Below, in pieces: positions 6,453 through 62,473 of a DNA stretch of 64,000 nucleotides. Where the stretch lies: assembly GCF_019721995.1 (NCBI RefSeq), contig NZ_BLYC01000002.1:1-64000 (forward strand), read 5' to 3'. How positions within the stretch are numbered: position 1 is the stretch's first letter; each line of letters opens with the position of its first letter. The notes beneath the pieces were generated by a model. The model was given only the letters and a program-made list of their open reading frames with translations. It made no database searches and was not told the origin of the DNA. The stretch is from Bathymodiolus japonicus methanotrophic gill symbiont (GTDB taxonomy: Bacteria; Pseudomonadota; Gammaproteobacteria; Methylococcales; Methylomonadaceae). The position numbers were made by a program, and so were the translations under genes.

Positions 6453-6746
6453 CGCTGAAAATCAGGGAAACGGAGCCTAAGCGAAGTGATGATTTTTAGT
6501 CCGCGATAGCCGTAGGGCCGTTGTTTTGTCGGAGTCTGAGCGTTAGCGAAGGTGGAGACAAAATAAAAGGCCATCCGACACGGCGTCAAGTCATTTGGAG
6601 CCTATGTTCCGACCCCTTGTTGGGTCGGGACGAGGTGACGAGGACGAATCGGGGCCGCCGGAGGCATAAGTGGTCGCGTTAAGTTTTTGCTGCTTGCTTG
6701 GGCTGGGATGCCCAAAACAAGCTTTCGCAAAAATAGCGACTCCCCG
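6453..6746 (+). repeat. Structured element SE-A, copy 1 (294 bp)
   Basis: It begins CGCTGAAAATCAGGG and ends GCGACTCCCCG, nearly identical to the copies at 16162, 33562 and 58945. It interrupts the integrase remnant. The helices are described in the findings. No coding potential is supported. Confidence 0.85.
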
Positions 6747-7148
6747 AATGTTTTGCTGGACTACTTATATCAATTTGAGTTGTTAATAAGTTTTCCTGCT
6801 GAAGGTAACGTAGATAGAGGTTTAAATCCTGAAGAGGCACTTGAGGGCGGTCGTAGTTTTCGAGAATTATATTGTAGATTGAAATGTATAAGTCATGCGT
6901 GAAGTCTTCAATTTTCATCGCTTTGGCTTCTATTATGTAGGGACCAATGTGACGTAATGATATGACCCGAGAGGCTGATAGTGGTGTCTTGCGAGTGCGT
7001 GCCCCCCAAAGTTGATTAACTGAAGTTTCCCAATAATTATTTATGGTAAAATTGAAACTATGCTACAACTATATGAAAAAAACAGTCTTTTCATTCGTTT
7101 CAAATGCTATTGCCTAAGGGGAATTAAGTAGGGGTTTGCTATAAACAT

Positions 7149-8682
7149 CATCAGTGTTCCCATTGAAAGAAGAAGTACCTAAACAAAGCAGCCTATAACC
7201 TACCTGAAGGTAGCACCACTCGAATATTTCCATATTTTTGATTTTAATCACTTATAACAGCAAATAAACACTCTGTAGGCACCGTAAAAAAACAACAAAT
7301 AATTTCAAATAAAGCTTGCATTTGCCGAAAAAAATTTTCTAAAAATTTCCGTTTTAATCACCTCATAAACGGATATCACCCATGCTTAAAGACCTACCAC
7401 TCTCTGAACATATTCACCAACACTGCAATGAAAGTATGGAACGTGCCCTGTTAGCAGAGCGTCATCCTTTGTGGGCTCGTTCATGCCCAGAGTTGAAGGA
7501 TATCGACTTTATTCGCCTTGGGTTATTACGCTGTATCAGTGTAGTCGATAGTGGTCGCCATTTCCTCCAAACCAATGAACAGATTTATGGCCAGCTGCTT
7601 CCCCACTCAACGTATTTTAAATCACTGAAGTCGCATAGACGAACAAGTATGCTTGAGGCATTTGAACAGCAGAGCTATCATCTTCACGCTGAAACACTGC
7701 TATCGCAAGGCATTGATTATCTTAAAGCATTCCCGGAACTTGACGAATACACCATAGAAGCAGCGGATGGACATTTTATTGATCATGCCTGCCATACTGA
7801 AAAAAACAGCAAGGGGAAAGTTTATGCGGCCGGGGGGATTTACGCGTTGAATCTCAGAAGTGGGTTGCTCAGATTTCTTTGTCTGGTGACAAACGGAACT
7901 CAGAGACATCAAGAAATACCTGTGTTACGAGATCATATTGAAAAGCAAAACAAGTGAAATAACAGCTCTCAGAAACATCTCTATGTCTACGATAAAGCCG
8001 TCACCGACTTTGTCTGGTGGGATCGGCAGAAACGACATGCTAATTACATGATTTCAATGCTAAAAGAAAATTCAATTGCGACTCTGGTTGAGTCTATCCC
8101 TTTTGACTCCCGCCATGAGATCAATACAGGGGTTGAAGCATACAGTGTGTACGAAAACAAGGGCATCAAATTTAACGTGGTGGATTACCGTGATCCAGAA
8201 ACCGGAAAACTTCACCGGTTTGTGACAACCTTGCCAATGACTATTAACCCTGGAACCATTGCCATGCTGTATTTCAAGCGATGGACGATTGAAAAGACAT
8301 TCAATAACACTAAAAGTAATTTCAAGGAAACTAAAGCTTGGTCTTCCAATACCCGCTCACTTGAAAATCAAATGCGCCTGACTGCAATGAGCTATAATTT
8401 AATGCGCGTGTTTGAAGAGATTTCAAAAACACAACAGCCAGAATTGATTCATCCATCGGATAAAAAATATAGCGAGGCTCTGGAGATAAGGCAGCAACAG
8501 GCTCAAAAACGAGATCGTTTTGTGAATCCATTATTTTTCCAGGCAAGAATATCTCGTATCAGCTCGTATACCATTCGGGCAGTTCAAAACGCAATAATAA
8601 CAGGAATGTCTTTACAGTGCTTTATGAGCTCTCTTGTGGCGAGGTTAGTTTCACGGCCTCAATTGATAGGGGAACACTGATG
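7149..8682 (+). mobile_element. IS-alpha copy a (1534 bp) in MITE-1
   Basis: Terminal repeats are CATCAGTGTTCCC and GGGAACACTGATG. An 8-bp duplication ATAAACAT (7141-7148 and 8683-8690) proves transposition into MITE-1. Confidence 0.92.
7382..8680 (+). pseudogene. IS-alpha transposase with an in-frame nonsense codon
   Basis: The sequence matches the intact 432-aa transposase at 27506-28804 except for TGA in place of GGA at 7955-7957, after residue 191. The remaining part restarts at a Met at 8048. The IS4-type YREK signature lies in the downstream part (YFKRWTIEKTFNNTK). Without suppression no full protein is made, so this copy would need transposase from another copy. Confidence 0.88.
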
Positions 8683-8773
8683 ATAAACATGGCAAAACCA
8701 CCTAAAATAAACCTCGATACACCAGCATTGTGCATTTCAGCTACTCAATAATTGGGAAACTTCAGCTAAAATA

Positions 8774-14486: not shown

Positions 14487-15085
14487 CCCATCTTCGTCAC
14501 TATTGATGATGTAGTTGTTATAAATCAACTGGTTGAAATTTTAAAAAGTAGCCAGTTGGCACTACCGCTGAAAATCATGGAAACGGAGCTTAGCGAAGTG
14601 GTGATTTTTAGTCCCTGATAGGCGACAGGGCAATTCGCTGATTCGACGTGTGCTAGCAGCACGCGAGAGGAGCAAGAATTGCATTCCGAATAGCCGTCCA
14701 GCCAGTGAGGTAGTAATGACGAAGCGGCTTTTGTGCGTAGTCGTTGCGGACGCAGGGCGTTCAGGGCATCTCCCATCCGCTGCGTAGGTGAGCGAATTAT
14801 GGCGACAGGAGTCCCGGAATTTCGTGAGGTAGCATGGCGCGCCTGAGATTTTGTGTTTTTGTATAAAACGTTGGATTTTTTAGAGTATTTTTGTCGCATG
14901 TAAATTACACTCAAATAATGATGATTTTTTTGACAAAAGTCAATGAATTTATCGACAAAAATAATATAAATGGCACTACAAAACTTTCAAAAAAAACACC
15001 ATTGATTTTAAAGAGAATTTTTCGACAAAAAATCGCTTAAACCGATGAATCAATGGCTTAGAAAGATGAAAGTGACGAAGATGGG
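14487..15085. repeat. MITE-2 copy 1 (319 bp net), carrying SE-B copy 1
   Basis: The ends CCCATCTTCGTCACT and AGTGACGAAGATGGG are inverted repeats. TTAA occurs on both sides (14483-14486 and 15086-15089), and one copy restores the gabD reading H-V-K-A-M. The interior is AT-rich with no supported gene. A second full copy is at 33302. Confidence 0.88.
14566..14845 (+). repeat. Structured element SE-B, copy 1 (280 bp)
   Basis: It lies in MITE-2 between ggcactac and agattttg. The other MITE-2 copy shows these flanks joined exactly, so insertion produced neither duplication nor loss. Confidence 0.92.
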
Positions 15086-16161: not shown

Positions 16162-16455
16162 CGCTGAAAATCAGGGAAACGGAGCCTAAGCGAAGTGATG
16201 ATTTTTAGTCCGCGATAGCCGTAGGGCCGTTATTTTGTCGGAGTCTGAGCGTTAGCGAAGGTGGAGACAAAATAAAAGGCCATCCGACACGGCGTCAAGT
16301 CATTTGGAGCCTATGTTCCGACCCCTTGTTGGGTCGGGACGAGGTGACGAGGACGAATCGGGGCCGCCGGAGGCATAAGTGGTCGCGTTAAGTTTTTGCT
16401 GCTTGCTTGGGCTGGGATGCCCAAAACAAGCTTTCGCAAAAATAGCGACTCCCCG
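16162..16455 (+). repeat. Structured element SE-A, copy 2
   Basis: It lies between aaagctat and tattgacg; other IS-beta copies read aaagctatattgacg. The insertion therefore carries one extra base, as in the other testable SE-A copies. Confidence 0.88.
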
Positions 16456-17214
16456 TATTGACGATTTAAATGATGCGCTCAATCAGCTAAAACCCGGAGC
16501 CGCTTTGACACGGATTCAAGCCGCTTGGTTGGGCGCTTGTTTAACGTGCATACTGCTAATGAACTCTGTTTGCTGGGCTAAGTTTGAGCGAGCAAGCCTT
16601 GGAGATTGCAAAGTAGCCGCATTATCCTGGGTGTTTCGTAAAGCAAGTATACCCTGGGACTGGTTGCTACGGGTGAGTGTGGTCTTAATTTTAAAACGTT
16701 ATGGCATTACTGAAGGTGTGTTGGCCTTTGATGAATCAGACCGAGCACGATCTAAGTCTACAAAACGTATTTATAAGGTTTACAAGCAGAAACACAAAGG
16801 CTCCGGCGGGTATGTTAATGGACAAACGATAGTATTATTGCTGCTAGTTACCTCATCCATTACAGTGCCTGTCGGTTTTTTCTTTTATATGCCGGATCCA
16901 GCCTTAAAGCAGTGGGATAAAGAAGATAAACGGTTGAAAAAGAGCGGTATAGCAAAAAAAGATCGGCCTATTAAGCCTGAACGTGACAGTGCCTACCCGA
17001 CCAAAACAGAGATTGCATTAGGCTTATTAAAAGAGTTTAAAGTTGCGCATAGCCTGATTAAAATTAAAGGCGTACTGGCTGATGCGCTTTATGGTGAAAA
17101 AGCCTTTATGGACGAAGCCGCTAAAGAATCTGGAGGCTCGCAGGTGATTAGCCAATTACGTAAAAACCAAAAAATTGAATATAGAGGTAGAATAAGGTCA
17201 GTCGAGAGCTACTT

Positions 17215-17474
17215 CGCTGTCAGCCCCGGACGGGCTGATAGTCTCCAGAAGGCGCAGGGAAATTTGCCAATCCGAAGTGCGCGATAGCGCGCGAGGGAGG
17301 CTAAAATTTTATCCCGAATAGCCGTAGAGCCATTTGTGGTAGCCATGACTGAGCTGCTTTGTGCTCAGTCTGTGGCGGACGCAGGGCGGCTGGAGCATCT
17401 CCTATTCGCTGCGTAGGTGAACGAATTACGGCGACAGGAGTCCCGGAATTTCGTGAGGTAGCATGGCGCGCCTG
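17215..17474 (+). repeat. Structured element SE-C, copy 1 (260 bp)
   Basis: It begins CGCTGTCAGCCCCGG and ends GGCGCGCCTG. It interrupts the IS-beta transposase at gctactt/taattcg; uninterrupted copies read gctactttaattcg, so the junction is exact. Its 3' third closely matches SE-B, while its 5' two thirds differ but fold the same way. Confidence 0.9.
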
Positions 17475-19931: not shown

Positions 19932-20395
19932 CGCTGAAAATCATGGAAACGTAGCTTAGCGAAGTGGTGATTTTTAGTCCCTGATAGGCGACAGGGCAAT
20001 TTGCCGATTCGACGTGTGCTAGCAGCACGCGAGAGGAGCAAGAATTGCATTCCGAATAGCCGTCCAGCCAGTGAGGTAGTAATGACGAAGCGGCTTTTGT
20101 GCGTAGTCGTTGCGGACGCAGGGCGTTCAGGGCATCTCCCATCCGCTGCGTAGGTGAACGAATTATGGCGACAGGAGTCCCGGAATTTCGTGAGGTAGCA
20201 TGGCGCGCCTGATAAAAGGCCATCCGACACGGCGTCAAGTCATTTGGAGCCTATGTTCCGACCCCTTGTTGGGTCGGGACGAGGTGACGAGGACGAATCG
20301 GGGCCGCCGGAGGCATAAGTGGTCGCGTTAAGTTTTTGCTGCTTGCTTGGGCTGGGATGCCCAAAACAAGCTTTCGCAAAAATAGCGACTCCCCG
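19932..20395 (+). repeat. Composite of SE-B (19932-20211) fused to the 3' part of SE-A (20212-20395)
   Basis: A complete 280-bp SE-B ends GGCGCGCCTG at 20211 and is followed at once by SE-A sequence from ATAAAAGGCC to CCCCG. The SE-A 5' half is missing. SE-B either landed in an SE-A that later lost its left half, or the two were joined by recombination. This SE-B has GAAACGTAGC instead of GAAACGGAGC, a variant shared with the copies at 61725 and 62194. Confidence 0.88.
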
Positions 20396-20774
20396 TACTA
20401 CGGGCATTAATGGCTTCGACATGATTAATATCGACATGATGAAAATCTCGCGTTGTTGTTTTTGAATCTAGCGGTTGTGACAGTTTTGCAGTCATCAGTG
20501 AGCTATAGCGCTGGGCTGTTGCTTCCAGAAGTTGATTTAAATCATCGGCTAAATTGAATAGCTCTTCCTGATGTGGTTCCAAACCTTGCTGTAATTGTTC
20601 GATTCTGGCCGTCAGCAAGGGCCAGTACTTTTTATCAATCGTAAAGTCCGCACCTATATTGAGCAATGTACGTTGCTTGACTTGTTTTCCTATACGCACA
20701 GATTCTACAATGCGGTAAGTGAAATAAGCTGAGCCGTCTTCAAGGCTTTTTGTTTTGGTTCTTCGAATATACAT
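20396..20774 (-). pseudogene. IS1634-family transposase, N-terminal fragment
   Basis: Starting at the ATG at 20772-20774, the fragment reads MYIRRTKTKSLEDGSAYFTYR, then VESVRIGKQVKQRTLLNIG and KKYWPLLTARIEQLQQG, the standard start of IS1634 transposases. It stops after HVDINHVEAINAR, where the composite SE begins. The catalytic domain is absent. It is walled in by SE elements on both sides, so it was trapped during rearrangement between them (inference). Confidence 0.8.
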
Positions 20775-20775
20775 A

Positions 20776-21055
20776 CGCTGAAAATCATGGAAACGGAGCT
20801 TAGCGAAGTGGTGATTTTTAGTCCCTGATAGGCGACAGGGCAATTCGCTGATTCGACGTGTGCTAGCAGCACGCGAGAGGAGCAAGAATTGCATTCCGAA
20901 TAGCCGTCCAGCCAGTGAGGTAGTAATGACGAAGCGGCTTTTGTGCGTAGTCGTTGCGGACGCAGGGCGTTCAGGGCATCTCCCATCCGCTGCGTAGGTG
21001 AACGAATTATGGCGACAGGAGTCCCGGAATTTCGTGAGGTAGCATGGCGCGCCTG
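20776..21055 (+). repeat. Structured element SE-B, copy 3
   Basis: A complete 280-bp copy, immediately 5' to the start codon of the IS1634 fragment on the opposite strand. The right flank (ccactagcatcgg) is unidentified, so the empty site cannot be tested. Confidence 0.88.
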
Positions 21056-21760: not shown

Positions 21761-22060
21761 CGCTGCCAGCCATGGAGAGCGAAAGCGAGGGCTGGTAGTC
21801 CCCAGAAGGCGTAGGGCCGTTGTTTTGTCGGAATCGTAGCGCTAGCGTAGGTGTAGACAAAATAAAAGGCATTCCGAAACGCCGTCCAGTCATTTGAGGG
21901 AGTGTTACGAAGCCAGCACCGAGTTTACGATGGTAATGGCGAAGTGGCACGTACGCAGGACGTCTGGGGCGCCGAAGGCATTAGTGGTCGCGTTAAGTTT
22001 TTGCCGCTTGCTTGGGCTGGGATGCCCAAAACAAGCTTTCGCAAAAATAGCGACTCCCCG
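21761..22060 (+). repeat. Structured element SE-D (300 bp)
   Basis: It begins CGCTGCCAGCC and ends GCGACTCCCCG. The 3' 70 bp are almost identical to SE-A, but the 5' hairpin and the middle differ. The left flank is a TPR gene and the right flank is IS-gamma, so this copy marks a rearrangement junction. Confidence 0.85.
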
Positions 22061-22461
22061 ATGTCTTGCTTGAGTTCTTTGAACTCGGATTCGATTTTCC
22101 ATCGCGCACCATAATACTCAATAATCTGTGTGACGGATAAATTTAGATCGGTCGTAAACAAAGCAATCCACTGTGTGCGACGAAACACCCAGACAACCTG
22201 AACGGGTCGTTTCAATGTTTTCAGCATGACAACGCGACTATAAGCCCTGACTTCACGCTGTTTTCCATAGAGATTCACGGTATACGATCGGGCCTTTTGT
22301 TGTACTGTTTTTGCCATGTCTGTGGCTGCCCCCAGACGCTGCCCGTACTTTTTATTCCGCCCCCTCTGCTTGGGTTTTATTTTTTCTGGACGATCGTACA
22401 GTACATTATTGCACCTTAACCTAGAGAGAATATTAAACCGGCTTCCGATAGCTTTGTAAAC
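22061..22461 (-). pseudogene. IS-gamma transposase, C-terminal fragment
   Basis: The minus strand reads VYKAIGSRFNILSRLRCNN, then RPVQVVWVFRRTQWIALFTTD and the YREK-type block YYGARWKIESEFKELKQDIG, where SE-D begins. The N-terminal end is cut by the IS-alpha insertion at 22462. The N-terminal part of the same kind of transposase is at 62474-62809. Overlapping residues are nearly identical to the copy at 61481-63018. Confidence 0.82.
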
Positions 22462-24343: not shown

Positions 24344-24623
24344 CGCTGAAAATCATGGAAACGGAGCTTAGCGAAGTGGTGATTTTTAGTCCCTGATAGG
24401 CGACAGGGCAATTCGCTGATTCGACGTGTGCTAGCAGCACGCGAGAGGAGCAAGAATTGTATTCCGAATAGCCGTCCAGCCAGTGAGGTAGTAATGACGA
24501 AGCGGCTTTTGTGCGTAGTCGTTGCGGACGCAGGGCGTTCAGGGCATCTCCCATCCGCTGCGTAGGTGAACGAATTATGGCGACAGGAGTCCCGGAATTT
24601 CGTGAGGTAGCATGGCGCGCCTG
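24344..24623 (+). repeat. Structured element SE-B, copy 4
   Basis: It sits near the IS-beta left end, followed by an extra ctcaat before atcaaaaac. It carries GAATTGTATTCC, a variant shared only with the copy at 36058, which occupies the identical IS-beta position without the extra six bases. Confidence 0.88.
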
Positions 24624-25819
24624 CTCAATATCAAAAACTTGAACATCGAGTTTTAGTGTTATTGAATGTCTTTTCAATCGTCCATCGCTTGAAATACAGC
24701 ATGGCAATGGTTCCAGGGTTAATAGTCATTGGCAAGGTTGTCACAAACCGGTGAAGTTTTCCGGTTTCTGGATCACGGTAATCCACCACGTTAAATTTGA
24801 TGCCCTTGTTTTCGTACACACTGTATGCTTCAACCCCTGTATTGATCTCATGGCGGGAGTCAAAAGGGATAGACTCAACCAGAGTCGCAATTGAATTTTC
24901 TTTTAGCATTGAAATCATGTAATTAGCATGTCGTTTCTGCCGATCCCACCAGACAAAGTCGGTGACGGCTTTATCGTAGACATAGAGATGTTTCTGAGAG
25001 CTGTTATTTCCCTTGTTTTGCTTTTCAATATGATCTCGTAACACAGGTATTTCTTGATGTCTCTGAGTTCCGTTTGTCACCAGACAAAGAAATCTGAGCA
25101 ACCCACTTCTGAGATTCAACGCGTAAATCCCCCCCCCGGCCGCATAAACTTTCCCCTTGCTGTTTTTTTCAGTATGGCAGGCATGATCAATAAAATGTCC
25201 ATCCGCTGCTTCTATGGTGTATTCGTCAAGTTCTGGGAATGCTTTAAGATAATCAATGCCTTGCGATAGCAGTGTTTCAGCGTGAAGATGATAGCTCTGC
25301 TGTTCAAATGCCTCAAGCATACTTGTTCGTCTATGCGACTTCAGTGATTTAAAATACGTTGAATGGGGAAGCAGCTGGCCATAAATCTGTTCATTGGTTT
25401 GGAGGAAATGGCGACCACTATCGACTACACTGATACAGCGTAATAACCCAAGGCGAATAAAGTCGATATCCTTCAACTCTGGGCATGAACGAGCCCACAA
25501 AGGATGACGCTCTGCTAACAGGGCACGTTCCATACTTTCATTGCAGTGTTGGTGAATATGTTCAGAGAGTGGTAGGTCTTTAAGCATGGGTGATATCCGT
25601 TTATGAGGTGATTAAAACGGAAATTTTTAGAAAATTTTTTTCGGCAAATGCAAGCTTTATTTGAAATTATTTGTTGTTTTTTACGGTGCCTACAGAGTGT
25701 CTATTTGCTGTTATAAGTGATTAAAATCAAAAAGATGGAAATATTCGAGTGGTGCTACCTTCAGGTAGGTTATAGGCTGCTTTGTTTAGGTACTTCTTCT
25801 TTCAATGGGAACACTGATG

Positions 25820-46314: not shown

Positions 46315-46574
46315 CGCTGTCAGCCCCGGACGGGCTGATAGTCTCCAGAAGGCGCAGGGAAATTTGCCAATCCGAAGTGCGCGATAGCGCGCGAGGGAGG
46401 CTAAAATTTTATCCCGAATAGCCGTAGAGCCATTTGTGGTAGCCATGACTGAGCTGCTTTGTGCTCAGTCTGTGGCGGACGCAGGGCGGCTGGAGCATCT
46501 CCTATTCGCTGCGTAGGTGAACGAATTACGGCGACAGGAGTCCCGGAATTTCGTGAGGTAGCATGGCGCGCCTG
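46315..46574 (+). repeat. Structured element SE-C, copy 2
   Basis: Identical in all positions I compared to the copy at 17215. It stands 218 bp upstream of narK. The DNA between it and narK (46575-46792) contains no gene and should hold the narK promoter; I see no convincing FNR or NarL site. Confidence 0.9.
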
Positions 46575-46792
46575 ATTAAAAGTAATGCTTTATTAGTCAG
46601 AGAAAAAACCTTACAAATTATGCTGATGCAAAAGTATCGTGTCAATACGACCTTAAAAACCTAGTAGTTCACTAGGTTATGATTATATTTATCAGTATGT
46701 TATGTTATCTTAATTACTAATAAATAGGGGTTTTAATTTTGAAAAGGAGTAGAATTAGAAAACTATTATTTAACCCTTGTTGTGGAGTCTAT

Positions 46793-48406
46793 ATGGCGGA
46801 TTTAAAAAAATGGGATGTAGAAGACCCTGAGTTTTGGGAGGCTGAAGGCAGGTATATTGCTAACCGAAATTTATGGATTTCGATCCCTAGTTTATTGTGT
46901 GGTTTTGCTATCTGGTTGTACTGGGGCATCATCACAGTACAGATGCTTAATCTCGGTTTTCCTTTTGAAAAGTCTGAGCTATTTACGCTAATGGCGATTG
47001 CGGGTTTAACAGGGGCAACGCTAAGAATTCCGAGTAGTTTTTTTATTCGTTTATGTGGTGGGCGAAATACCATCTTTTTTACTACCGCGCTATTAATGAT
47101 TCCGGCACTAGGTACAGGGCTTGCTTTACGCGATCAAAGTACACCGTTCTGGGTATTTCAGGTGCTGGCTTTATTATCAGGCTTTGGTGGTGGGAATTTT
47201 GCCTCTTCCATGTCTAACATCAGCTTTTTCTTTCCCAAGAAAGTGCAGGGACTGGCATTAGGGTTAAATGCAGGGCTGGGTAATTTTGGTGTGACCAGCA
47301 TGCAAATCTTGATCCCACTGTCTATGACTTTTGGAATATTTGGTTCATGGGGTGGGGATCCCATGATTCTCCAAACTGCCTCGGGTACACTGATAGGTAA
47401 GATTCCTGCAGGAACTGAAACCTATATACAAAATGCGGGTTTTATCTGGTTGCTATTTTTGATCCCGCTCGCTTTTCTAGGCTGGTTTGGTATGAATAAT
47501 ATCCGTACAGAAGAAGTTTCGCCTATAGAAAGAGGGCCGTTTCTTAGCTTTAGTATCATCACTGGTATGCTGGGCATCAGTTTTATCAGTGCCGTGTTTG
47601 GTTTATGGCTAATCTTGCCTGAATCTGTGCATGGCTCTGGTTTTCACGTGCCTAAAGAAATTGCGTTATTTATTGTTATTGCTTTAACCGTTTCTTTATT
47701 AAAAATCATTCCCGGACAAATAGGCGAGAGCCTTGGTAGACAATATCAGATTTTTGATAATAAACACACCTGGGTGATGAGTATTATCTATACCATGACT
47801 TTTGGCTCTTTTATTGGTTTTGCAGCCTGTTTTCCACTAGCCATTAAAGTTATTTTTGGCTATCAGCATGTGATGGTGGATGGTGTAATGACGCATGACC
47901 TGGCTAACCCCAATGGACCGAGCGCATTAATGTATGCCTGGACAGGTGCTTTTATTGGTGCATTAATTCGACCAGTAGGTGGAATGATTGCCGACAAGTT
48001 TGGCGGTGCCTGGGTGACGCATATTTGTTCGTTTGTGATGGTGATTAGTGCGGGTGGGGTGGCTTATTATATGAAAGCTGCATACAACTCTGCGACACCA
48101 GAAGAATATTTTGTGCCTTTCTTGCTTATCTTCCTGGTTCTATTCGCCGCGACTGGCATCGGCAATGGCTCAACGTTTAGAACGATTGCCATGGTTTTTC
48201 CAAAAGAACAGGTCGGTCCTGTTTTAGGCTGGACTTCTGCAGTGGCGGCGTATGGCGCTTTTTATATCCCCAAGGTGTTCGGTGAGCAGATAAAAGCGAC
48301 TACGCCAGAAGTCGCGCTAATGGGATTTGCAGCATTTTATGTAGTCTGCATTATGATCAATTGGTGGTTTTATTTGCGCAAGGATGGTGAGTTCTACAAC
48401 CCCTAA
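46793..48406 (+). CDS. narK: NarK-type nitrate/nitrite transporter (MFS)
   Basis: An inner-membrane protein of the major facilitator superfamily that imports nitrate and/or exports nitrite for respiration. About 12 hydrophobic segments are visible. Family motifs are the glycine-rich stretches GFGGGNFASSMSNISFFFP and GTGIGNGSTFRTIAMVFP (nitrate signatures), with RPVGGMIADKFGGAWVTH. I take the ATG at 46793 (MADLKKWDVEDPEFW), preceded by GTGGAG; a 54-bp longer frame has no homology. The 537 aa fit NarK2-like forms. It is followed after 151 bp by narG, the usual order. Confidence 0.92.
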   Translation: MADLKKWDVEDPEFWEAEGRYIANRNLWISIPSLLCGFAIWLYWGIITVQMLNLGFPFEKSELFTLMAIAGLTGATLRIPSSFFIRLCGGRNTIFFTTALLMIPALGTGLALRDQSTPFWVFQVLALLSGFGGGNFASSMSNISFFFPKKVQGLALGLNAGLGNFGVTSMQILIPLSMTFGIFGSWGGDPMILQTASGTLIGKIPAGTETYIQNAGFIWLLFLIPLAFLGWFGMNNIRTEEVSPIERGPFLSFSIITGMLGISFISAVFGLWLILPESVHGSGFHVPKEIALFIVIALTVSLLKIIPGQIGESLGRQYQIFDNKHTWVMSIIYTMTFGSFIGFAACFPLAIKVIFGYQHVMVDGVMTHDLANPNGPSALMYAWTGAFIGALIRPVGGMIADKFGGAWVTHICSFVMVISAGGVAYYMKAAYNSATPEEYFVPFLLIFLVLFAATGIGNGSTFRTIAMVFPKEQVGPVLGWTSAVAAYGAFYIPKVFGEQIKATTPEVALMGFAAFYVVCIMINWWFYLRKDGEFYNP

Positions 48407-48557
48407 CGGTTTATTGGCACATAAGATGCTTGTTTATTGCAATGCTCAAGAGTGCCGTATTTATTACTAAATATTGTCCAAGTTGGTGCTTTTAAGCTTT
48501 TGTTGCACTAAACTATAGCAGTCATTATTGCTGTTTTAAACACTAGGAGAAATATCG

Positions 48558-51500
48558 ATGAGTCATTTTTTAGACCGTCTCAACTTTTTCAAGAAAGTAC
48601 AAAGTAAGTTTTCCGGGGGTCATGGCATTGTGACCAACGAAGATCGCCAATGGGAAGATGGTTATCGCAACCGCTGGCGCTATGATAAAGTCGTACGCTC
48701 CACGCATGGGGTTAACTGTACCGGTAGCTGCTCATGGAATATTCATGTTAAAAATGGTCTGGTTGCATTTGAAATGCAGGCAACGGATTATCCACGCACG
48801 CGCCCGGATATGCCAAACCACGAACCACGTGGTTGTCCACGTGGAGCAAGTTTTTCCTGGTATTTATACAGCCCTTTACGGGTGAAGCATCCGTTAATTC
48901 GTGAGCGTTTAGTCTCTTTATATAGAGAAGAGCGTGTGTCAGGTAAAGATCCTGTAGAGGCTTGGGGTGCGATTCAAGAGGGTTCTGAAAAACGTAAAAA
49001 GTATACTGCAGTCCGTGGCTTAGGTGGCTTTGTCCGTGTTGACTGGGAAGAAGTAGCAGAAATTATTGCAGCCTCAAATGTCTATACGGCTAAAACCCAT
49101 GGTCCTGACAGAATAGCGGGGTTCTCACCGATTCCTGCCATGTCGATGATTAGTTATGCTGCAGGGAGTCGCTATTTATCATTAATTGGTGGCGCTTGTT
49201 TATCTTTCTATGACTGGTACTGCGATTTACCGCCTGCATCCCCACAAACCTGGGGTGAACAAACGGATGTACCTGAATCAGCTGACTGGTATAACTCAAC
49301 CTATATAGTTGTTGCAGGCTCTAACTTGCCGATGACACGAACACCTGATGCGCATTTTTACTCAGAAGTACGCTATAAAGGTGCAAAGGTTGTTGCTATT
49401 TCACCTGATTATGCAGAATACGTTAAATTTGCTGATTTATGGATGCCGGCTAAACAAGGCACTGATGCAGCTGTATTCCTGGCAATGGGGCATGTAGCTT
49501 TAAAAGAATTCTTCATTGATAATCAAGACGCTTATTTTGAGGAGTATGCTCGTACCTATACTGATATGCCTATGCTGGTTATATTGGATGAATATCAAGG
49601 CTCTTATGTTAATGGTCGTTTTTTGCGTGCGGCTGACTTTGATGATTCGCTAGGCGAGAAAAATAACCCGGACTGGAAAACCGTAGTTATTGATGAAAAA
49701 ACGGGCGATATTATCGCACCTAATGGATCTATTGGTTTCCGCTGGGGTGAAGAAGGAAAATGGAATTTAGTGCCTAAAAAAGGCCGCAGAAATACTAAAG
49801 CACGCCTGAGTCTGATTTTTGATAAAGACGATGTAGTGGAAGTGTTAATGCCTGATTTTCAAACAGGTGTTGATGTGCCTATGCGTCGCAATGTTCCAGT
49901 TAGAAAGGTCACGCTAGAAGGTAAAGAGGTTCTGGTGACTACTGTATTTGACCTGCAATTGGCGCAATATGGCCTGGATCGAGGTTTAGGCGGTGATATA
50001 GCTTCGGGCTATGATGATGCCAGTATTCCAAATACGCCTGCCTGGGCAGAAAAAATCACCGGTGTAAAGCAAGCCGATATTATTCGCAGTGGTCGTGAGT
50101 TTGCTGATAATGCGTCTAAGACCATGGGTAAATCCATGGTTATTCTGGGCGCTGGGCTTAACCATTGGTATCACAACGATATGCATTATCGTGCGATTAT
50201 GAATTTATTGCATATATGTGGTTGTATCGGTCAAAGTGGTGGTGGCTGGTGTCATTATGTGGGGCAGGAAAAACTCCGTCCACAAGCAGGTTGGGCACCA
50301 GTTGCTTTTGCACTGGACTGGCAAAAACCACCGCGCCACATGAACGGTACAACATATTTCTATTTCCATACCGATCAGTGGCGTTATGAAAAAATTGAAG
50401 CAGATTCCTTGTTGGCATCCACTGCACAGGCTAATTACAAAGGTCATAACCTGGCGGATTACAATGTTGTTTCACAGCGCTTAGGCTGGTTGCCATCTGC
50501 ACCTCACTTTAACAAAAATCCGATGGAGATTGTTAAAGATGCGGAAGCATCCGGTGCGACAGATGAAAAGGATGTTGCTGACTATATAGTTAAGCAGCTT
50601 AAATCAGGCGATCTCAAGTTTGCGGCAGAAGATATAGATGCACCTGAAAATCATCCACGTAATTTATTTGTCTGGCGTGCGAATTTGATAGGTTGTAGTG
50701 CTAAAGGGCATGAATATTTTCTTAAGCATTTGCTAGGCGCCCAAAATGGTGTGATGCAGGATGTGCTTCCAGAAGCGAAGGGTGCGGAAATAAAGTGGCA
50801 TAAAGATGCGCCAATTGCCAAGCTGGATTTAATGGTGGATATTAACTTCCGCTTGAATTCAACCGGCGCGTATTCGGATATTGTTTTACCGACAGCAACC
50901 TGGTACGAGAAAAATGATCTGAATACCACCGATATGCACCCTTTTATCCACCCGTTAACACAGGCTGTTGACCCAGGTTGGGAGTCACGTTCGGATTGGC
51001 AGATCTTTAAAACGATTGCAAAGTCATTTTCAGTACTTGCTGAGAAGCATTTAGGCGTGCAGAAAGATGTGGTAGCTTTACCTCTTCTACACGACACGTC
51101 AGCTGAGCTTGCTCAGGCTATGGATGTTAAAGACTGGAAACGAGGTGAGTGTGAGCCTATTCCGGGTAAGACAATGCCAGTGTTAAAAGTGGTTGAACGT
51201 GATTTTGCCAATACCTATAAAAAGTACACTGCATTAGGACCTTTATTGCCTAAGCAAGGTAACAATATTAAAGGGATCGATTGGGATACTGAAAAAGAAT
51301 ATGAGCATCTAAAAGAAATTAATTACACCATTAAAGAGGAAGGAATTTCTAAAGGCATGCCTTCTTTAGAAGATGATATTAGTGTGTGTGAGACGATACT
51401 ATCTCTGGCACCAGAAACCAATGGTGAAGTGGCAGTTAGATCCTGGAAAGCACTCAGTACTAAAACCGGTGTTGACCATACTCATCTGGCATTGCCGCGT

Positions 51501-52328
51501 GAAGATGACAAAATCACTTTCCGTGATATTAAAGCACAGCCACGCAAGATTATTACTGCGCCAACCTGGAGTGGTATTGAATCGGAAAAAGTCAGCTATA
51601 ACGCTTGCTACACGAATATCCATGAGCATATCCCATTCCGTACCTTAACGGGGCGTGCACAGTTTTATCAGGATCATCAGTGGATGCGTGATTTTGGTGA
51701 GGCATTTTGCACCTACAAACCTGCAGTGGACATGCTAACGCTGAAAGAAATGCTGGAAAAAGTAGGTGATAAACCACATTTAAAGCTGAACTGGATTACG
51801 CCGCATGGTAAATGGGGGATTCATAGTACCTATCATGATAACCATCGTATGTTAACGCTGTCGCGTGGTGGGCCGCACCTGTGGATTTCTGAAACCGATG
51901 CTGAAAAAGCAGGGATAGATGATAATGACTGGGTAGAAGCGCTGAATATCAATGGTGCAACCATTGCCAGAGCGGTCGTTAGTCAACGTATTCCTGATGG
52001 TATGGCGATGATGTATCATGCTCAGGAAAAGAATGTTAATGTGCCTGGTTCGAATACTACAGGTAAACGCGGTGGTATTTTAAACAGTGTGACGCGTGTC
52101 ACCGTAAAACCAACGCATATGATTGGTGGCTATGCCCAGCTTAGCTATGGCTTTAACTATTACGGAACTGTCGGTTCGCAGCGTGATGAATATGTTATCT
52201 TGCATAAAATTGAAAACCAGGATATTCAGTGGCTGGAAGAGCCACTAACAGCAGCTAAAGAAAAACAGCTGAATCCTGAAGGCGTACATCAAGCAGAATA
52301 TGCTTGCACAGACGAGTCGGAGAAATAA
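48558..52328 (+). CDS. narG: Respiratory nitrate reductase, alpha subunit
   Basis: The molybdenum (bis-MGD) catalytic subunit that reduces nitrate to nitrite on the cytoplasmic face. The FS0 4Fe-4S site HGVNCTGSCSW supplies His and Cys ligands near residue 50, with CPRGASFSW later. The Mo-site region YNSTYIVVAGSNLPMTRTPD and the substrate-channel segments are present. The C-terminal MGD-binding domain includes GKRGGILNSVTRVTVKPTHM. At 1256 aa it is full length. AGGAGA lies before the ATG. It heads narGHJI, with two bases between its stop and narH. Confidence 0.97.
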   Translation: MSHFLDRLNFFKKVQSKFSGGHGIVTNEDRQWEDGYRNRWRYDKVVRSTHGVNCTGSCSWNIHVKNGLVAFEMQATDYPRTRPDMPNHEPRGCPRGASFSWYLYSPLRVKHPLIRERLVSLYREERVSGKDPVEAWGAIQEGSEKRKKYTAVRGLGGFVRVDWEEVAEIIAASNVYTAKTHGPDRIAGFSPIPAMSMISYAAGSRYLSLIGGACLSFYDWYCDLPPASPQTWGEQTDVPESADWYNSTYIVVAGSNLPMTRTPDAHFYSEVRYKGAKVVAISPDYAEYVKFADLWMPAKQGTDAAVFLAMGHVALKEFFIDNQDAYFEEYARTYTDMPMLVILDEYQGSYVNGRFLRAADFDDSLGEKNNPDWKTVVIDEKTGDIIAPNGSIGFRWGEEGKWNLVPKKGRRNTKARLSLIFDKDDVVEVLMPDFQTGVDVPMRRNVPVRKVTLEGKEVLVTTVFDLQLAQYGLDRGLGGDIASGYDDASIPNTPAWAEKITGVKQADIIRSGREFADNASKTMGKSMVILGAGLNHWYHNDMHYRAIMNLLHICGCIGQSGGGWCHYVGQEKLRPQAGWAPVAFALDWQKPPRHMNGTTYFYFHTDQWRYEKIEADSLLASTAQANYKGHNLADYNVVSQRLGWLPSAPHFNKNPMEIVKDAEASGATDEKDVADYIVKQLKSGDLKFAAEDIDAPENHPRNLFVWRANLIGCSAKGHEYFLKHLLGAQNGVMQDVLPEAKGAEIKWHKDAPIAKLDLMVDINFRLNSTGAYSDIVLPTATWYEKNDLNTTDMHPFIHPLTQAVDPGWESRSDWQIFKTIAKSFSVLAEKHLGVQKDVVALPLLHDTSAELAQAMDVKDWKRGECEPIPGKTMPVLKVVERDFANTYKKYTALGPLLPKQGNNIKGIDWDTEKEYEHLKEINYTIKEEGISKGMPSLEDDISVCETILSLAPETNGEVAVRSWKALSTKTGVDHTHLALPREDDKITFRDIKAQPRKIITAPTWSGIESEKVSYNACYTNIHEHIPFRTLTGRAQFYQDHQWMRDFGEAFCTYKPAVDMLTLKEMLEKVGDKPHLKLNWITPHGKWGIHSTYHDNHRMLTLSRGGPHLWISETDAEKAGIDDNDWVEALNINGATIARAVVSQRIPDGMAMMYHAQEKNVNVPGSNTTGKRGGILNSVTRVTVKPTHMIGGYAQLSYGFNYYGTVGSQRDEYVILHKIENQDIQWLEEPLTAAKEKQLNPEGVHQAEYACTDESEK

Positions 52329-52330
52329 AA

Positions 52331-53902
52331 ATGAAAGTAAGAGCAAATTTTTCACTGGTGATGAATCTCGATAAATGTATTGGGTGTCATACCTGTTCTG
52401 TGACTTGTAAAAATGTCTGGACAAACCGTAAAGGGGTTGAATACGCCTGGTTTAATAATGTTGAAACCAAACCGGGTATTGGTTATCCAAAAAACTGGGA
52501 AGACCAGGAGAAGTGGAACGGTGGTTGGGAATTACATGGTGGTAAACTGCAATTAAAATCAGGTAATCGACTCAATATTCTAAAGAATATCTTTATGAAT
52601 CCGAATATGCCGACCATTGATGATTATTATGAGCCGTTTACTTATGACTATGCCACGTTACAAAATAGTGAGTTAGTCGAAGCAATACCTACTGCTAGAC
52701 CACGATCTTTGATTGATGGTCAGCGTATGGAAAAGATTGAATGGGGGCCAAACTGGGAAGATGATTTAGGAGGTAAATTCAAACATCGTGGTGCTGACGT
52801 TAACTTTAGCGACATGGAAAAGCAGGTTTATGGGGAGTTTGAGCAGACCTTCCTGATGTACCTACCGCGCATGTGTAATCACTGTATTAACCCTTCCTGT
52901 GTTGCATCGTGTCCGTCGGGTTCATTATATAAGCGCGAAGAAGACGGTATTGTTTTGGTAGACCAGGATAAATGTCGTAGCTGGCGTATGTGTATCAGTG
53001 CTTGTCCGTACAAGAAAATGTTTTATAACTGGGAGTCCGGTAAAGCTGAAAAATGTACTGGTTGTTATCCTCGCGTTGAATCGGGTTTGCCAACAGTATG
53101 TTCTGAGTCCTGTGTAGGACGTATTCGCTATAACGGAGTCATGCTTTATGATGCAGATCGAATCTCAGAGCTTGCGGCAGTAGAAAATGACCAGGATTTA
53201 TATCAGGCACAACTGGATATATTCCTTGACCCCAATGACCCTGAAGTGATTAAACAGGCGAAAGAAGATGGAATTCCTGAATCTTGGATGGAAGCGGCAC
53301 GGCTATCACCGATTCGTAAATTAATCGTAGACTGGAAAGTGGCTTTTCCATTGCACCCAGAGTTCCGTACCATGCCGATGGTCTGGTATGTGCCTCCTCT
53401 ATCGCCAGTGCAATCGCAAATTGACCAGGGTAATCTATCAACCATGGCTGATGGTGCGACTCCTAGTATAGAAACCTTGCGTTTGCCAATGAAATATCTG
53501 GCGAATATGTTTACTGCAGGTGATGAAAAGCCTATCGTTGCCGCCTTAAAACGCATGATTGCTATGCGTAGCTTTTATCGCTCTAAGCTTGTCGAAGGCA
53601 AGATAGATTTAGCAGTACTGGAAGAGGTAGGGCTAAGCGAAGATCAGGTTAATGAAATGTATCGCTATATGGCGATTGCCAATTATGAAGATCGTTTTGT
53701 TATTCCTACAAGCCATGAAGAGTTGCGTCAGGAAGATTTTCACAGTTTTCAGGGGCAGAATGGCTTCAGTTTTGGTAATGACGGTTGTAGCATTAGTGAT
53801 AATGCTTCGCTATTTCCTGATAAGCGTAAAAAGACCGCGGATAATCTTGAGTTTGTACGTTATCACCCTGCAGCAAAGCGCTCTGATGGGGAGGTTGCAT
53901 GA
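52331..53902 (+). CDS. narH: Respiratory nitrate reductase, beta subunit
   Basis: Electron-transfer subunit with one 3Fe-4S and three 4Fe-4S clusters. Cys groups: CIGCHTCSVTCKNVW near residue 16, CNHCINPSCVASCPSG near 185, and CRSWRMCISACPYKK near 217, where Trp replaces a Cys to give the 3Fe-4S centre. CTGCYPRVESGLPTVCSESC lies near 244. I use ATG 52331 (MKVRANFSLVMNLDKC) after GGAG; the longer frame overlaps narG. 523 aa, normal. Its stop overlaps the narJ start (ATGA). Confidence 0.97.
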   Translation: MKVRANFSLVMNLDKCIGCHTCSVTCKNVWTNRKGVEYAWFNNVETKPGIGYPKNWEDQEKWNGGWELHGGKLQLKSGNRLNILKNIFMNPNMPTIDDYYEPFTYDYATLQNSELVEAIPTARPRSLIDGQRMEKIEWGPNWEDDLGGKFKHRGADVNFSDMEKQVYGEFEQTFLMYLPRMCNHCINPSCVASCPSGSLYKREEDGIVLVDQDKCRSWRMCISACPYKKMFYNWESGKAEKCTGCYPRVESGLPTVCSESCVGRIRYNGVMLYDADRISELAAVENDQDLYQAQLDIFLDPNDPEVIKQAKEDGIPESWMEAARLSPIRKLIVDWKVAFPLHPEFRTMPMVWYVPPLSPVQSQIDQGNLSTMADGATPSIETLRLPMKYLANMFTAGDEKPIVAALKRMIAMRSFYRSKLVEGKIDLAVLEEVGLSEDQVNEMYRYMAIANYEDRFVIPTSHEELRQEDFHSFQGQNGFSFGNDGCSISDNASLFPDKRKKTADNLEFVRYHPAAKRSDGEVA

Positions 53903-54426
53903 CCCAGATCTATAAAGTTTTGTCTGTCTTATTGGAATACCCTGGTAAGGAGCTGGTAGAAAACTGGGACGAAATGCGAAAACTCATCTCAGAACTGCCC
54001 GACCTGAACGAAGAAGATAAAAGCAGACTGAATGGCTTTATTGAATGGGCATCCGCTTTATCATTAACGCAGTTTCAGGCGAAATATGTAGATAGCTTTG
54101 ATATGACGGCAGAAAACTCACTATATCTGACTTATCATTTATTTGATGAGCAAGATAGAGAAAGAGGGCCGGCACTGATTCAATTATCCGAGTTGTATAA
54201 ATCAACAGGCTTTGAAATTGGTGATGGCGAACTGCCCGATTATTTACCGTTGATTCTGGAGTATGTGTTCACGATGGATGATGCAAGCAGTGCCCGTGAG
54301 TTTTTACAGCAAACGGCACAAGCCGCTGACATTATTGCCAGTAACCTTGAAAAGAATGCAAGCCCGTATGCGCCACTGGTTAGAATTGTGGAGCATCATG
54401 GCCTTTTAGCAGATATTGCAGCATAG
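53899..54426 (+). CDS. narJ: Nitrate reductase assembly chaperone NarJ
   Basis: A cytoplasmic TorD/DmsD-like chaperone that helps insert the Mo cofactor and keeps NarGH soluble until it meets NarI. It begins MTQIYKVLSVLLEYPGKELV and contains the characteristic YVDSFDMTAENSLYLTYHLF, with ERGPALIQL and ELPDYLPLILEYV. At 175 aa it is slightly short but complete. It overlaps narH by four bases and precedes narI by eight, so translation is probably coupled. Confidence 0.94.
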   Translation: MTQIYKVLSVLLEYPGKELVENWDEMRKLISELPDLNEEDKSRLNGFIEWASALSLTQFQAKYVDSFDMTAENSLYLTYHLFDEQDRERGPALIQLSELYKSTGFEIGDGELPDYLPLILEYVFTMDDASSAREFLQQTAQAADIIASNLEKNASPYAPLVRIVEHHGLLADIAA

Positions 54427-54434
54427 GTATTGAT

Positions 54435-55130
54435 ATGAATTTAAGTAATTTATTATTTGGGGTTTACCCTTATATCGCACTAACTACCTTTATAGTGGGT
54501 AGTTTAATTCGCTTTGATCGTGAGCAATACACCTGGAAGGCAGATTCCAGTCAGATATTTGAAAAAGAACAGCTGCAAAAAGGCAGCATCCTGTTTCATA
54601 TCGGCGTATTAGCCTTGTTTATGGGACATTTCGCCGGTTTAGTGATACCGCATAACTGGTTTTTAGCCATGGGAGTATCCGATATGATGCACCAGGTGGT
54701 TGCTATTTCAGCGGGAGCCGCTTTTGGTTCGATATGTATGATGGGCGGAGTGATTTTATGGAAGCGCCGCATGTATCATCCACGGGTGCGAGCCAACAGT
54801 CGATTTATGGATATTTTTATTCTGGACTGGATTTTGGTAACTCTAGGGGTAGGGCTATTAACCATTCCTGTGTCTATTTACCATGCTTTTAGTGGTGATG
54901 CATCGGTTATGGTTGCGCTGGCTGAGTGGGTACAAAGTATGCTGGCGTTAAACTCGCAACCTGAATATTTAGCCGGGGTCGGGTTTATTTACAAGTTGCA
55001 CTTATTTCTTGGTATGTCGGTGTTTTTCTTGTTTCCGTTTAGCCGTCTGGTACACGTCTGGAGTATGCCTTTGGGTTATATGTTTAGACCATATCAGATT
55101 GTGAGAACGAAATTTGTTAAGCAACGTTAA
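54435..55130 (+). CDS. narI: Respiratory nitrate reductase, gamma subunit (cytochrome b)
   Basis: Membrane di-heme cytochrome b that takes electrons from quinol and anchors NarGH. Five transmembrane helices are evident. Heme-ligand His candidates are in FHIGVLALFMGHFAGLVIPH near the second helix and in LHLFLGMSVFFLFPFSRLVH near the end. It ends with MPLGYMFRPYQIVRTKF. The 231 aa match the family. It is the last gene of narGHJI. Confidence 0.95.
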   Translation: MNLSNLLFGVYPYIALTTFIVGSLIRFDREQYTWKADSSQIFEKEQLQKGSILFHIGVLALFMGHFAGLVIPHNWFLAMGVSDMMHQVVAISAGAAFGSICMMGGVILWKRRMYHPRVRANSRFMDIFILDWILVTLGVGLLTIPVSIYHAFSGDASVMVALAEWVQSMLALNSQPEYLAGVGFIYKLHLFLGMSVFFLFPFSRLVHVWSMPLGYMFRPYQIVRTKFVKQR

Positions 55131-56270: not shown

Positions 56271-57401
56271 ATGAAAAAAAAATCATTGAATAAGAAACAC
56301 ATGTTATCAGCTGTCTTTGCGACACTTTTCTTTGCTTTACCTAGCTATGCAGCTGAGAGTAATAAGCATCACTCATCTAAACATTCGTCAAAGCAAGTCA
56401 ATTTTGGCCCAGGAGACCAGTACCTGCACCGTATGTCTGTTAAGCCGTCTGACTATCAAAAGCTTAAAGAGATAAGTCGCAAAGCATCTGATTTGCCTAA
56501 GCCTTTGCTTAGAAAACGTGTAGAAAAAATTAGCATTGAACTAACGGCATCAGAAGTGATAGCAGAGATAGCGCCAGGTATTTCTTATCATTACTGGACC
56601 TTTAATAACACAGTTCCAGGCCCGTTCCTGAGAGTTCGCGTAGGAGATACGGTTGAACTTAATTTGCATAATGCAGAAAATAGTAGCCATAGTCACGCAA
56701 TAGATTTACATGCAGTTACCGGCCCTGGTGGCGGTATGGCGGTGACTCAGGTTGAGCCAGGAGAAAGCAAAACCCTGGTGTTTAAAGCAACGACCCCTGG
56801 CTTATATACCTACCATTGTGCGAGTGGAAATCCAGCCACGCATATTGCGAATGGTATGTATGGGATGATTTTAGTCGAACCTACTCAGGGTCTGGCGAAA
56901 GTAGATCATGAATTTTATGTGATGCAGGGAGAGCTTTATACGCATGGAAAAATTGGCAAAAAAGGTTTTCAGGCTTTTGATAGCCGAAAAATGATTGATG
57001 AGCGCCCTGAATATATAGTCTTTAATGGCCGCACGGGTGCGTTAGTCGGAGATGGGCAGTTAACAGCAAGAGTTGGCGACAAGATACGGTTATTTGTGGG
57101 TAATTCTGGCGTTGCCAAAATATCATCGTTTCATGTTATTGGCGAGATTTTTGACACGGTCTATCCCGAAGCGTCTTTAAGCAACCCGATACACAATGTG
57201 CAAACCACACTGATACCAGCAGGGGGCGCAACAATGGTTGAATTCCAGGTAGATTATCCGGGTAATTATGTGCTGGTTGATCATGCATTAACACGAATAG
57301 ATAGAGGCGCCTGGGGTGTTTTAAAGGTTACGGGTAAAAAGGATAACACGCTATATTCTGGTGATAGTAGCTCCCATGCAGAGCACAGTGAAGATCATTA
57401 A
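56271..57401 (+). CDS. nirK: Copper nitrite reductase, AniA type
   Basis: A periplasmic multicopper enzyme reducing nitrite to NO. A signal peptide (MKKKSLNKKH... LFFALPSYAA) is followed by a His-rich linker (HHSSKHSSK). Two cupredoxin domains follow. Type 1 Cu ligands: the His preceding AIDLHAV, then YHC, THIANGMYG (His and Met). HAIDLHAVTG provides the catalytic Asp and type 2 Cu His residues, YHC another, and SSFHVIGEIFD the second-domain His. FYVMQGELYTHGKIGKKG and PEYIVFNGRTGALVGD match the Neisseria AniA group. It has a C-terminal His-rich tail. 376 aa, intact. The ribosome site is weak (agaga) because MITE-1 lies close upstream. Confidence 0.94.
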   Translation: MKKKSLNKKHMLSAVFATLFFALPSYAAESNKHHSSKHSSKQVNFGPGDQYLHRMSVKPSDYQKLKEISRKASDLPKPLLRKRVEKISIELTASEVIAEIAPGISYHYWTFNNTVPGPFLRVRVGDTVELNLHNAENSSHSHAIDLHAVTGPGGGMAVTQVEPGESKTLVFKATTPGLYTYHCASGNPATHIANGMYGMILVEPTQGLAKVDHEFYVMQGELYTHGKIGKKGFQAFDSRKMIDERPEYIVFNGRTGALVGDGQLTARVGDKIRLFVGNSGVAKISSFHVIGEIFDTVYPEASLSNPIHNVQTTLIPAGGATMVEFQVDYPGNYVLVDHALTRIDRGAWGVLKVTGKKDNTLYSGDSSSHAEHSEDH

Positions 57402-58944: not shown

Positions 58945-59237
58945 CGCTGAAAATCCTGGAAACGGAGCTTTAGCGAAGTGAAGATTTTTAGTCCGCGATA
59001 GCCGTAGGGCCGTTGTTTTGTCGGAGTCTGAGCGTTAGCGAAGGTGGAGACAAAATAAAAGGCCATCCGACACGGCGTCAAGTCATTTGGAGCCTATGTT
59101 CCGACCCCTTGTTGGGTCGGGACGAGGTGACGAGGACGAATCGGGGCCGCCGGAGGCATAAGTGGTCGCGTTAAGTTTTTGCTGCTTGCTTGGGCTGGGA
59201 TGCCCAAAACAAGCTTTCGCAAAAATAGCGACTCCCC
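58945..59237 (+). repeat. Structured element SE-A, copy 5
   Basis: As the other SE-A copies, but with CATCCTGG-type differences near the 5' end (AATCCTGGAAACGG), an extra T in GAGCTTTAGCG and no final G (CTCCCC). It marks the right edge of the intact nitrate/nitrite region. The region 58817-59382 otherwise contains no gene I can support. Confidence 0.86.
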
Positions 59238-59382
59238 AAACTTGCCTTTTTGCTCCTGACCAAACGATCTCGATCGTCACGTAGAATGACCATGCTCTTC
59301 TTGAGATAGATTGGCCAGAATCAAAAAATCTTCGCAATCTTGGTAACTTTATTCCGTCAAACTGCCTAGGAATCTAATCCGC

Positions 59383-61399: not shown

Positions 61400-61724
61400 A
61401 AATTCCTCCTGAGTTAATTGGAGGTATTAGTCTGCCATTTTTTATATTGGTTTAGAATGTGTACTTTAATTGACGCTTACTTCTATTCCGCCCCCTCTGC
61501 TTGGGTTTTCTTTTTTCTGGACGATCGTACAGTACATTATTGCACCTTAACCTAGAGAGAATATTAAACCGGCTTCCGATAGCTTTGTAAACAGGCTTCC
61601 ATAGGCCATTGTTGCCAAACCAGCTATCAGTGACTGTCAATATCGGAGCGGTGGAAAAATGTTCTGCAATTGCAATCAGCATTTGAGCCGCCTGAGCCAT
61701 CTTGGTCTGGAAAGGAACGACATC

Positions 61725-62004
61725 CGCTGAAAATCATGGAAACGTAGCTTAGCGAAGTGGTGATTTTTAGTCCCTGATAGGCGACAGGGCAATTCGCTGA
61801 TTCGACGTGTGCTAGCAGCACGCGAGAGGAGCAAGAATTGCATTCCGAATAGCCGTCCAGCCAGTGAGGTAGTAATGACGAAGCGGCTTTTGTGCGTAGT
61901 CGTTGCGGACGCAGGGCGTTCAGGGCATCTCCCATCCGCTGCGTAGGTGAACGAATTATGGCGACAGGAGTCCCGGAATTTCGTGAGGTAGCATGGCGCG
62001 CCTG
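61725..62004 (+). repeat. Structured element SE-B, copy 8
   Basis: Junction acgacatc/acctcttatc; exact removal restores TIRG/DVVPF. It has the GAAACGTAGC variant. Confidence 0.92.
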
Positions 62005-62193
62005 ACCTCTTATCGTGGCGGTTTCTTTTTTTGCCTGAATTGTTTTTAAGGGGAGATAAAATCGGAAATCTAAAAATAAGCACGCCCAGCGACCTTTGAC
62101 CTGTTTCAGCAACCCTACCGATACAATATTTTGTGCCCATGGATATTTGCTTTGATCCGATTTGGCAGCGTGGTCAAAAATGGCTTCACAGCC

Positions 62194-62473
62194 CAGGCGC
62201 GCCATGCTACCTCACGAAATTCCGGGACTCCTGTCGCCATAATTCGTTCACCTACGTAGCGGATGGGAGATGCCCTGAACGCGCTGCGTCCGCAACGACT
62301 ACGCACAAAAGCCGCTTCGTCATTACTACCTCACTGGCTGGACGGCTATTCGGAATGCAATTCTTGCTCCTCTCGCGTGCTGCTAGCACACGTCGAATCA
62401 GCGAATTGCCCTGTCGCCTATCAGGGACTAAAAATCACCACTTCGCTAAGCTACGTTTCCATGATTTTCAGCG
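62194..62473 (-). repeat. Structured element SE-B, copy 9, inverted
   Basis: The same 280 bp on the minus strand, 189 bp from copy 8. Exact removal restores KNIF/GCEAIF. It shares GAAACGTAGC with copies 2 and 8. Confidence 0.92.

Follow-up and report, generated by a model that had tools for sequence, protein, structure and literature searches.

The window examined here is a stretch of 64,000 nucleotides (nt) from the methanotrophic gill symbiont of Bathymodiolus japonicus (contig NZ_BLYC01000002.1, positions 1 to 64,000 of the forward strand), and spread along it are copies of SE-A, SE-B, SE-C and SE-D, four structured elements (SEs) that form one family of precise elements, with lengths of 295, 280, 260 and 301 nt respectively. 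An earlier note made from the letters of the window had the lengths of B and C right, with A and D each one base short. With the four elements as queries, blastn gives 17 SE places in the window, the number counted in that note, of which 15 are complete and two are parts; A is complete four times, B eight times (once on the minus strand), C twice and D once. The sequence GGCGCGCCTG occurs 11 times in the window where 0.13 occurrences are expected, and GCGACTCCCCG five times where 0.02 are expected. With a rough probability of 0.55, the SEs are transposons of a non-autonomous kind, moving as a single DNA strand and mobilised in trans by a putative enzyme. The places are as follows, an empty site being a copy of the flanking sequence that lacks the SE.

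6453-6747, plus strand: SE-A, complete, ends CCCCGA, its end placed by the empty sites of A
14566-14845, plus strand: SE-B, complete
16162-16456, plus strand: SE-A, complete, ends CCCCGT, has an empty site
17215-17474, plus strand: SE-C, complete, within repeated transposase-like sequence, clean empty site
19932-20211, plus strand: SE-B, complete
20212-20396, plus strand: 3′ part of SE-A, starting at A position 111 and adjoining without a gap the SE-B at 19932-20211
20776-21055, plus strand: SE-B, complete, clean empty site
21761-22061, plus strand: SE-D, complete, ends CCCCGA
24344-24623, plus strand: SE-B, complete, flanked on either side by CTCAAT and offset by 6 bases from its empty site, the single such place in the sample
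32189-32337, plus strand: 3′ part of SE-B, from B position 132
33562-33856, plus strand: SE-A, complete, ends CCCCGA, has empty sites
36058-36337, plus strand: SE-B, complete, left flank the same as at 24344, second CTCAAT absent
37182-37461, plus strand: SE-B, complete
46315-46574, plus strand: SE-C, complete
58945-59239, plus strand: SE-A, complete, ends CCCCAA
61725-62004, plus strand: SE-B, complete
62194-62473, minus strand: SE-B, complete

The genome to which the window belongs, here called the own genome (G000), has 4,971,076 bases in 109 contigs. Among the 80 loci listed, its valyl-tRNA synthetase is closest to one from a Bathymodiolus platifrons methanotrophic gill symbiont (92%), followed by one from a Methyloprofundus (84%), and on this basis the host counts as a Methyloprofundus-like methanotroph. 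Its sequence contains 834 matches, with at most two mismatches, to the 22-base 3′ end shared by B and C, and none to the reversed pattern. A sample of 862,708 bases, taken as 20-kb segments with SEs that cross a segment edge counted as split, holds 307 SE places with a median identity to the query of 99.6%, and 244 of them are complete (B 92, A 86, C 63 and D 3). Applying the ratio of A/D to B/C copies, 89 to 155, to the 834 B/C ends extrapolates to about 1,300 SE 3′ ends in the whole genome, or some 7% of it.

Since many SEs sit within repeated sequences, empty copies of their targets are available in the same genome. A copy of the left flank lacking an SE exists for 136 of the 243 complete SEs tested (A 54, B 37, C 44, D 1), and at 94 of these 136 the junction is clean, with neither loss nor duplication of bases (A 39/54, B 23/37, C 31/44, D 1/1). 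The remaining comparisons comprise the 6-base offset at window position 24344, one other offset and 40 cases without a 16-base match on the right. Empty sites also put the A/D junction two variable bases past CCCC; the A/D end given previously, GCGACTCCCCG, is therefore corrected to one base later, GCGACTCCCCNN^ (the caret marking the end), the last bases of 89 A and D copies being CCCCGA in 51, CCCCAA in 19 and CCCCGC in 11.

Insertion is 3′ of CNNN, with C at -4 in 239 of the 244 complete copies of the own genome and in every subfamily; among the same 244, C is rare at -5 (9) and G at -1 (5). In other genomes 72 of the 74 loci for which a start was assigned also have C at -4, with several loci commonly coming from one genome, four of 78 loci being without assignment and three of the 74 (L179, L195 and L269) looking wrong by eye. 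The sequence with which the element begins varies by clade (CGCTG, GAAGGAGCAC, CGACGAG, CGAGGAGCAC or TGACTGAGCCC), and the C at -4 is kept regardless. Right ends have C at -4 as well, being CCTG and CCNN from empty sites in the own genome and CTTG, CATC and CCAG where the end was inferred from the point at which several copies cease to agree. SEs avoid intact open reading frames (ORFs): an ORF of at least 250 amino acids (aa) spans the junction at 35 of 197 sites, 47 of the 244 having been dropped as close to segment ends, against 54% of 2000 random positions.

What is conserved in the family is a fold. The common plan of the 5′ half is a 5′ hairpin, TAGTC, the 5′ arm of a helix P0, AG, the 5′ arm of a helix P1 and a variable arm, and that of the 3′ half is the 3′ arm of P1, a conserved single-stranded stretch, hairpin P3, GACGCAGG, the 3′ arm of P0, a 3′ hairpin and the end. 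P0, the long-range closing helix, forms between the stretch after the 5′ hairpin and another a little ahead of the 3′ hairpin; P1 is a second long-range helix spanning about 90 columns. In 37 of 40 rows (three were dropped for gaps) 187 of 222 P1 cells are Watson-Crick pairs, against 118.8 ± 6.3 after shuffling and a maximum of 140 in 2000 shuffles. The compensatory change pointed out in the earlier note, GCCGT/ACGGC in A against GGCGT/ACGCC in D, is genuine and extends across 38 diverse sequences (the A3 alignment), in which an independent count puts P1 at 94.7% paired, compared with 70.5 ± 2.4% shuffled and 67.1% at best when the arms are slid. The covariation score of P1 is 0.569 against 0.130 in shuffles, none of 500 of which scored as high. 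For P0, 244 of 270 cells are paired, against 213.9 ± 3.0 shuffled. As P0 joins the neighbourhoods of the left and right hairpins, it would bring the ends of the element near each other, and we infer that the fold serves transposition in this way.

Some details bear on whether DNA or RNA is the folded species. Pairs of G with U are few (five in P0 and five in P1), and this scarcity hints at DNA. With RNA parameters the sense strand outfolds the antisense in 42 of 43 elements, and with DNA parameters in 43 of 43, base composition being uncontrolled; this advantage does not tell DNA from RNA, and the loop types favour neither (eight GNRA and eight GNYA tetraloops with a C-G closing pair, and six further GNRA). 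Folding energy beats shuffles for SE-A, with z of -2.76 as DNA and -3.84 as RNA, and does not for SE-B, with z of -0.26 as DNA and -0.36 as RNA, a point against the earlier observation. There are subterminal hairpins at both ends of one SE strand; the minimum-energy fold of B is no better than shuffles. Units consisting of the hairpin only, as expected of mobile repetitive extragenic palindromes (REPs) and sought for one hairpin type, number two in the 862,708 bases, and both are deletion-like.

The strand on which SEs lie follows GC skew and not gene direction. In segments with GC skew above 0.02 there are 131 SEs on the plus and 30 on the minus strand, and in those with skew below -0.02 there are 17 and 80, these sums covering 38 of the 44 segments with the six of weaker skew excluded. 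Over all 44 segments the Spearman correlation is 0.64 with skew (p 3e-6) and 0.17 with ORF strand (p 0.26); part of the segments were chosen after their SE strands had been seen and before their skew was known. The leading strand is as a rule G-rich, and the skew sign read in that way places the folded strand on the lagging-strand-template side at 211 of 258 places. The same fork-side preference is described for IS608 and ISDra2 (PMC5371812).

No protein is encoded within the elements. Among 28 diverse elements there is no frame of 100 codons confined between the ends; overlapping open frames exit into the flank, and a minus-strand frame of SE-B, of about 80 codons, likewise leaves through the 5′ end. 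In one other genome (G027) a group II intron encoding a reverse transcriptase of 416 aa lies within the loop of the 5′ hairpin of some copies, namely L299 and L307 (near 722763 and 2529674 of its contig C1) and a third, at 2259366, deduced from equal spacing. The intron is taken for an insertion into the SE and not a part of it, and its presence at the same point in different copies means that the SE seems to be its homing site.

The family extends well beyond this symbiont. Relatives are found by blastn in 22 of 61 genomes, the own one included. Twelve cores, all taken from the window and its order, went into a covariance model (R1). At E<=1e-3 it has matches in 41 of 369 gammaproteobacterial genomes, which represent 33 genera and 27 families (counted by hand, the own included), the weakest of these matches possibly being due to chance; in a sample of the phylum it matches the own genome only, 1 of 398, both scans having been run with stricter filters. 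A Methyloprofundus plasmid carries one full-length relative, and partial relatives (21-30% of the query) are present in plasmids of Methylobacter, Methylomonas, Candidatus Methylocalor and Legionella antarctica. The plasmid of Methylomonas sp. AM2-LC, a cultivated strain, has the SE 5′ end in eight places; with L182 and L185 as queries no plasmid relatives were found, and with SE-A as query none in phages. Exact motifs of the SE core or of the 5′ hairpin are present in five stretches of IMG/VR contigs (L221-L225).

In the mechanism proposed for a single-stranded non-autonomous transposon, the top strand would fold once the lagging-strand template is exposed, with P0 joining the left and right ends of the folded strand; an enzyme supplied in trans would then cut at the left flank and at the right end, in both cases 3′ of CNNN, and the freed strand would be joined into another exposed CNNN. 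The earlier note supposed an element that moves as DNA while selection acts on it as a folded RNA or single strand, and this agrees with the clean insertions, the replication-side bias and the covarying helices.

Several observations weigh against this reading. Chief among them, no transposase could be linked to the family, and none lies within the copies examined. Y1_Tnp matches at E<=1e-10 are present in 26 of the 41 SE genomes and in 159 of the 328 others (p 0.10), and at E<=1e-3 three SE genomes, G368, G388 and G090, have none despite nearly identical copies at different sites (five distinct sites in G368), all three being multi-contig assemblies from which a Y1 gene may be missing. Flanks are repeated at one site, that at window position 24344; of the two B copies there and at 36058 (24344-24629 and 36058-36343 with the following six bases), which share a left flank, CTCAAT is on both sides in the former alone. 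Empty sites fix right ends in the own genome alone, and in G188 and G396 the right ends are not fixable. The target has a single fixed base, fewer than the four or five of IS200/IS605. Finally, 464 kb holds 123 complete copies and, besides them, two with an internal deletion, whereas in IS200/IS605 derivatives the interior is expendable.

A bolder proposal, which is tentative, is that SEs are a separate class having a nucleic-acid fold, and not an encoded protein, as the conserved core, with P0 and P1 joining the ends, movement at replication forks, and mobilisation by neither Y1 nor reverse transcriptase but by another enzyme, possibly one of the host. In a literature search of titles and abstract openings, no account of the SE element was found.

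It is rather unlikely that SEs are classical derivatives of IS200/IS605, or REP-like ones, moved by an ordinary Y1 enzyme (IS200 TnpA or a REP-associated tyrosine transposase, RAYT) encoded elsewhere in the genome. The hallmarks of single-strand transposition are present, and Y1_Tnp is matched at E<=1e-3 in 15 of the 18 SE genomes tested, the exceptions being the three named above. Against such a source, however, the Y1 loci retrieved from the own genome and other SE genomes include SEs near or inside Y1 genes but no parent with SE ends. The own genome has 22 Y1_Tnp matches, and of the places read (L044, L047, L050, L051 and L060) only the RAYT L051 looks intact, and it has repeats of its own. 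SE ends are absent from the flanks of L051, L231, L235, L237, L240, L241, L250, L251, L252, L254 and L255, most of the RAYT loci carrying other repeats. An SE also interrupts a Y1 transposase gene in two unrelated genomes, at L236 (G039 C1:1945258, by coordinates only) and L233 (G094 C1:3163757). Separately, the RAYT genes L255, L240, L252 and L254 of SE genomes, about 180 aa in length, lie beside REP-like repeats of their own, and G335 has nine Y1_Tnp matches.

Less probable again is a mobile ribozyme-like RNA that enters single-stranded DNA at CNNN by reverse splicing, with a reverse transcriptase acting in trans to copy it, as in group II introns. The conserved and covarying core would suit it, as would the better folding of the sense strand, with the reservation on base composition given above, and a fork-side bias is also compatible with intron retrohoming. 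Set against it, RVT_1 has no match (E<=1e-3) in six of 16 SE genomes tested. These include the single-contig G185, with identical SE cores at three sites, and G094, also a single contig; such absences count for more than those in multi-contig assemblies, which may miss genes. In G090 and G388 neither Y1_Tnp nor RVT_1 is matched. Avoidance of intact ORFs is unlike the behaviour of a silently spliced intron, and the SEs have no Rfam intron match.

The Rfam search that the earlier note proposed gave no relevant match, whether to HEARO, group II introns or the remaining families, in the window or in 20 diverse loci, the weak hits being to unrelated families; the Rfam group II families, domain V included, have no match in the SEs. 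This bears on one of the two classes then taken to fit best, a HEARO or IscB (or IsrB) omega-RNA without its nuclease gene, which now has very little probability. Similar size and an ORF-less state speak for it, but RF02033 has no match in the own genome at E<=10 or in the 20 diverse loci at E<=1, and PF14239 is absent from the own genome, though present in seven of the 61 genomes searched. An IS110 or bridge-RNA system does not fit as regards its target, which is some ten or more bases long and set by the RNA of the element, whereas nearly identical SE copies sit at targets sharing one base. An ordinary miniature inverted-repeat transposable element of a DDE transposase, to which short, repeated units without an ORF of their own might be ascribed, is scarcely credible when neither end is the inverted repeat of the other and 94 clean sites lack a target duplication.

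As to the setting of these copies, the window is crowded with long repeats that are nearly identical, and transposase genes or fragments account for many of them. By ORF reading alone, 46739-55130 and 56271-57401 contain a nitrate transporter, narGHJI-like nitrate reductase genes and a copper nitrite-reductase-like gene.

If SEs are indeed transposons moving as a folded single strand, they would constitute a structured selfish element family without an Rfam 15 model, one that the class sample places in 27 families of Gammaproteobacteria. It would become possible to test whether a transposon can use a natural fold of about 280 nt as a scaffold for joining its own ends, and the family would point to a single-strand mobilising enzyme to be found.

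Comparison with known systems gives partial likeness in each case. With group II introns SEs share clean insertion without duplication and the fork-side bias known for introns; they differ in the lack of an Rfam match and of RVT_1 in the six of 16 genomes. With HEARO and IscB omega-RNA they share the character of a structured RNA-like mobile unit, which in HEARO is often ORF-less, and differ in giving no covariance-model match and in occurring in a genome without the IscB domain. With REPs and REPINs moved by RAYT they have in common the absence of an ORF, high copy number, a hairpin basis and occurrence in gammaproteobacteria. According to PMC3733652, a REP is a palindrome of 20-40 bp, most with a GTAG or CGTC tag, in contrast to the 260-301 nt of an SE, and the RAYTs read carry other repeats and have no SE ends. 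Closest are IS200/IS605 elements such as IS608 and ISDra2, together with their non-autonomous derivatives (PATEs). SE behaviour is IS200/IS605-like, and the earlier suggestion of that type holds for the lack of target duplication, the fixed 5′ base within a short 5′ motif, the hairpins at both ends and the lagging-strand-template side. Class membership fails on the transposase, because none is in the copies examined and the Y1 loci retrieved include no parent with SE ends. The distinction lies also in the single fixed target base, in a core of about 95-190 nt that covaries and is enclosed by the end hairpins, and in a long-range helix that joins the ends.

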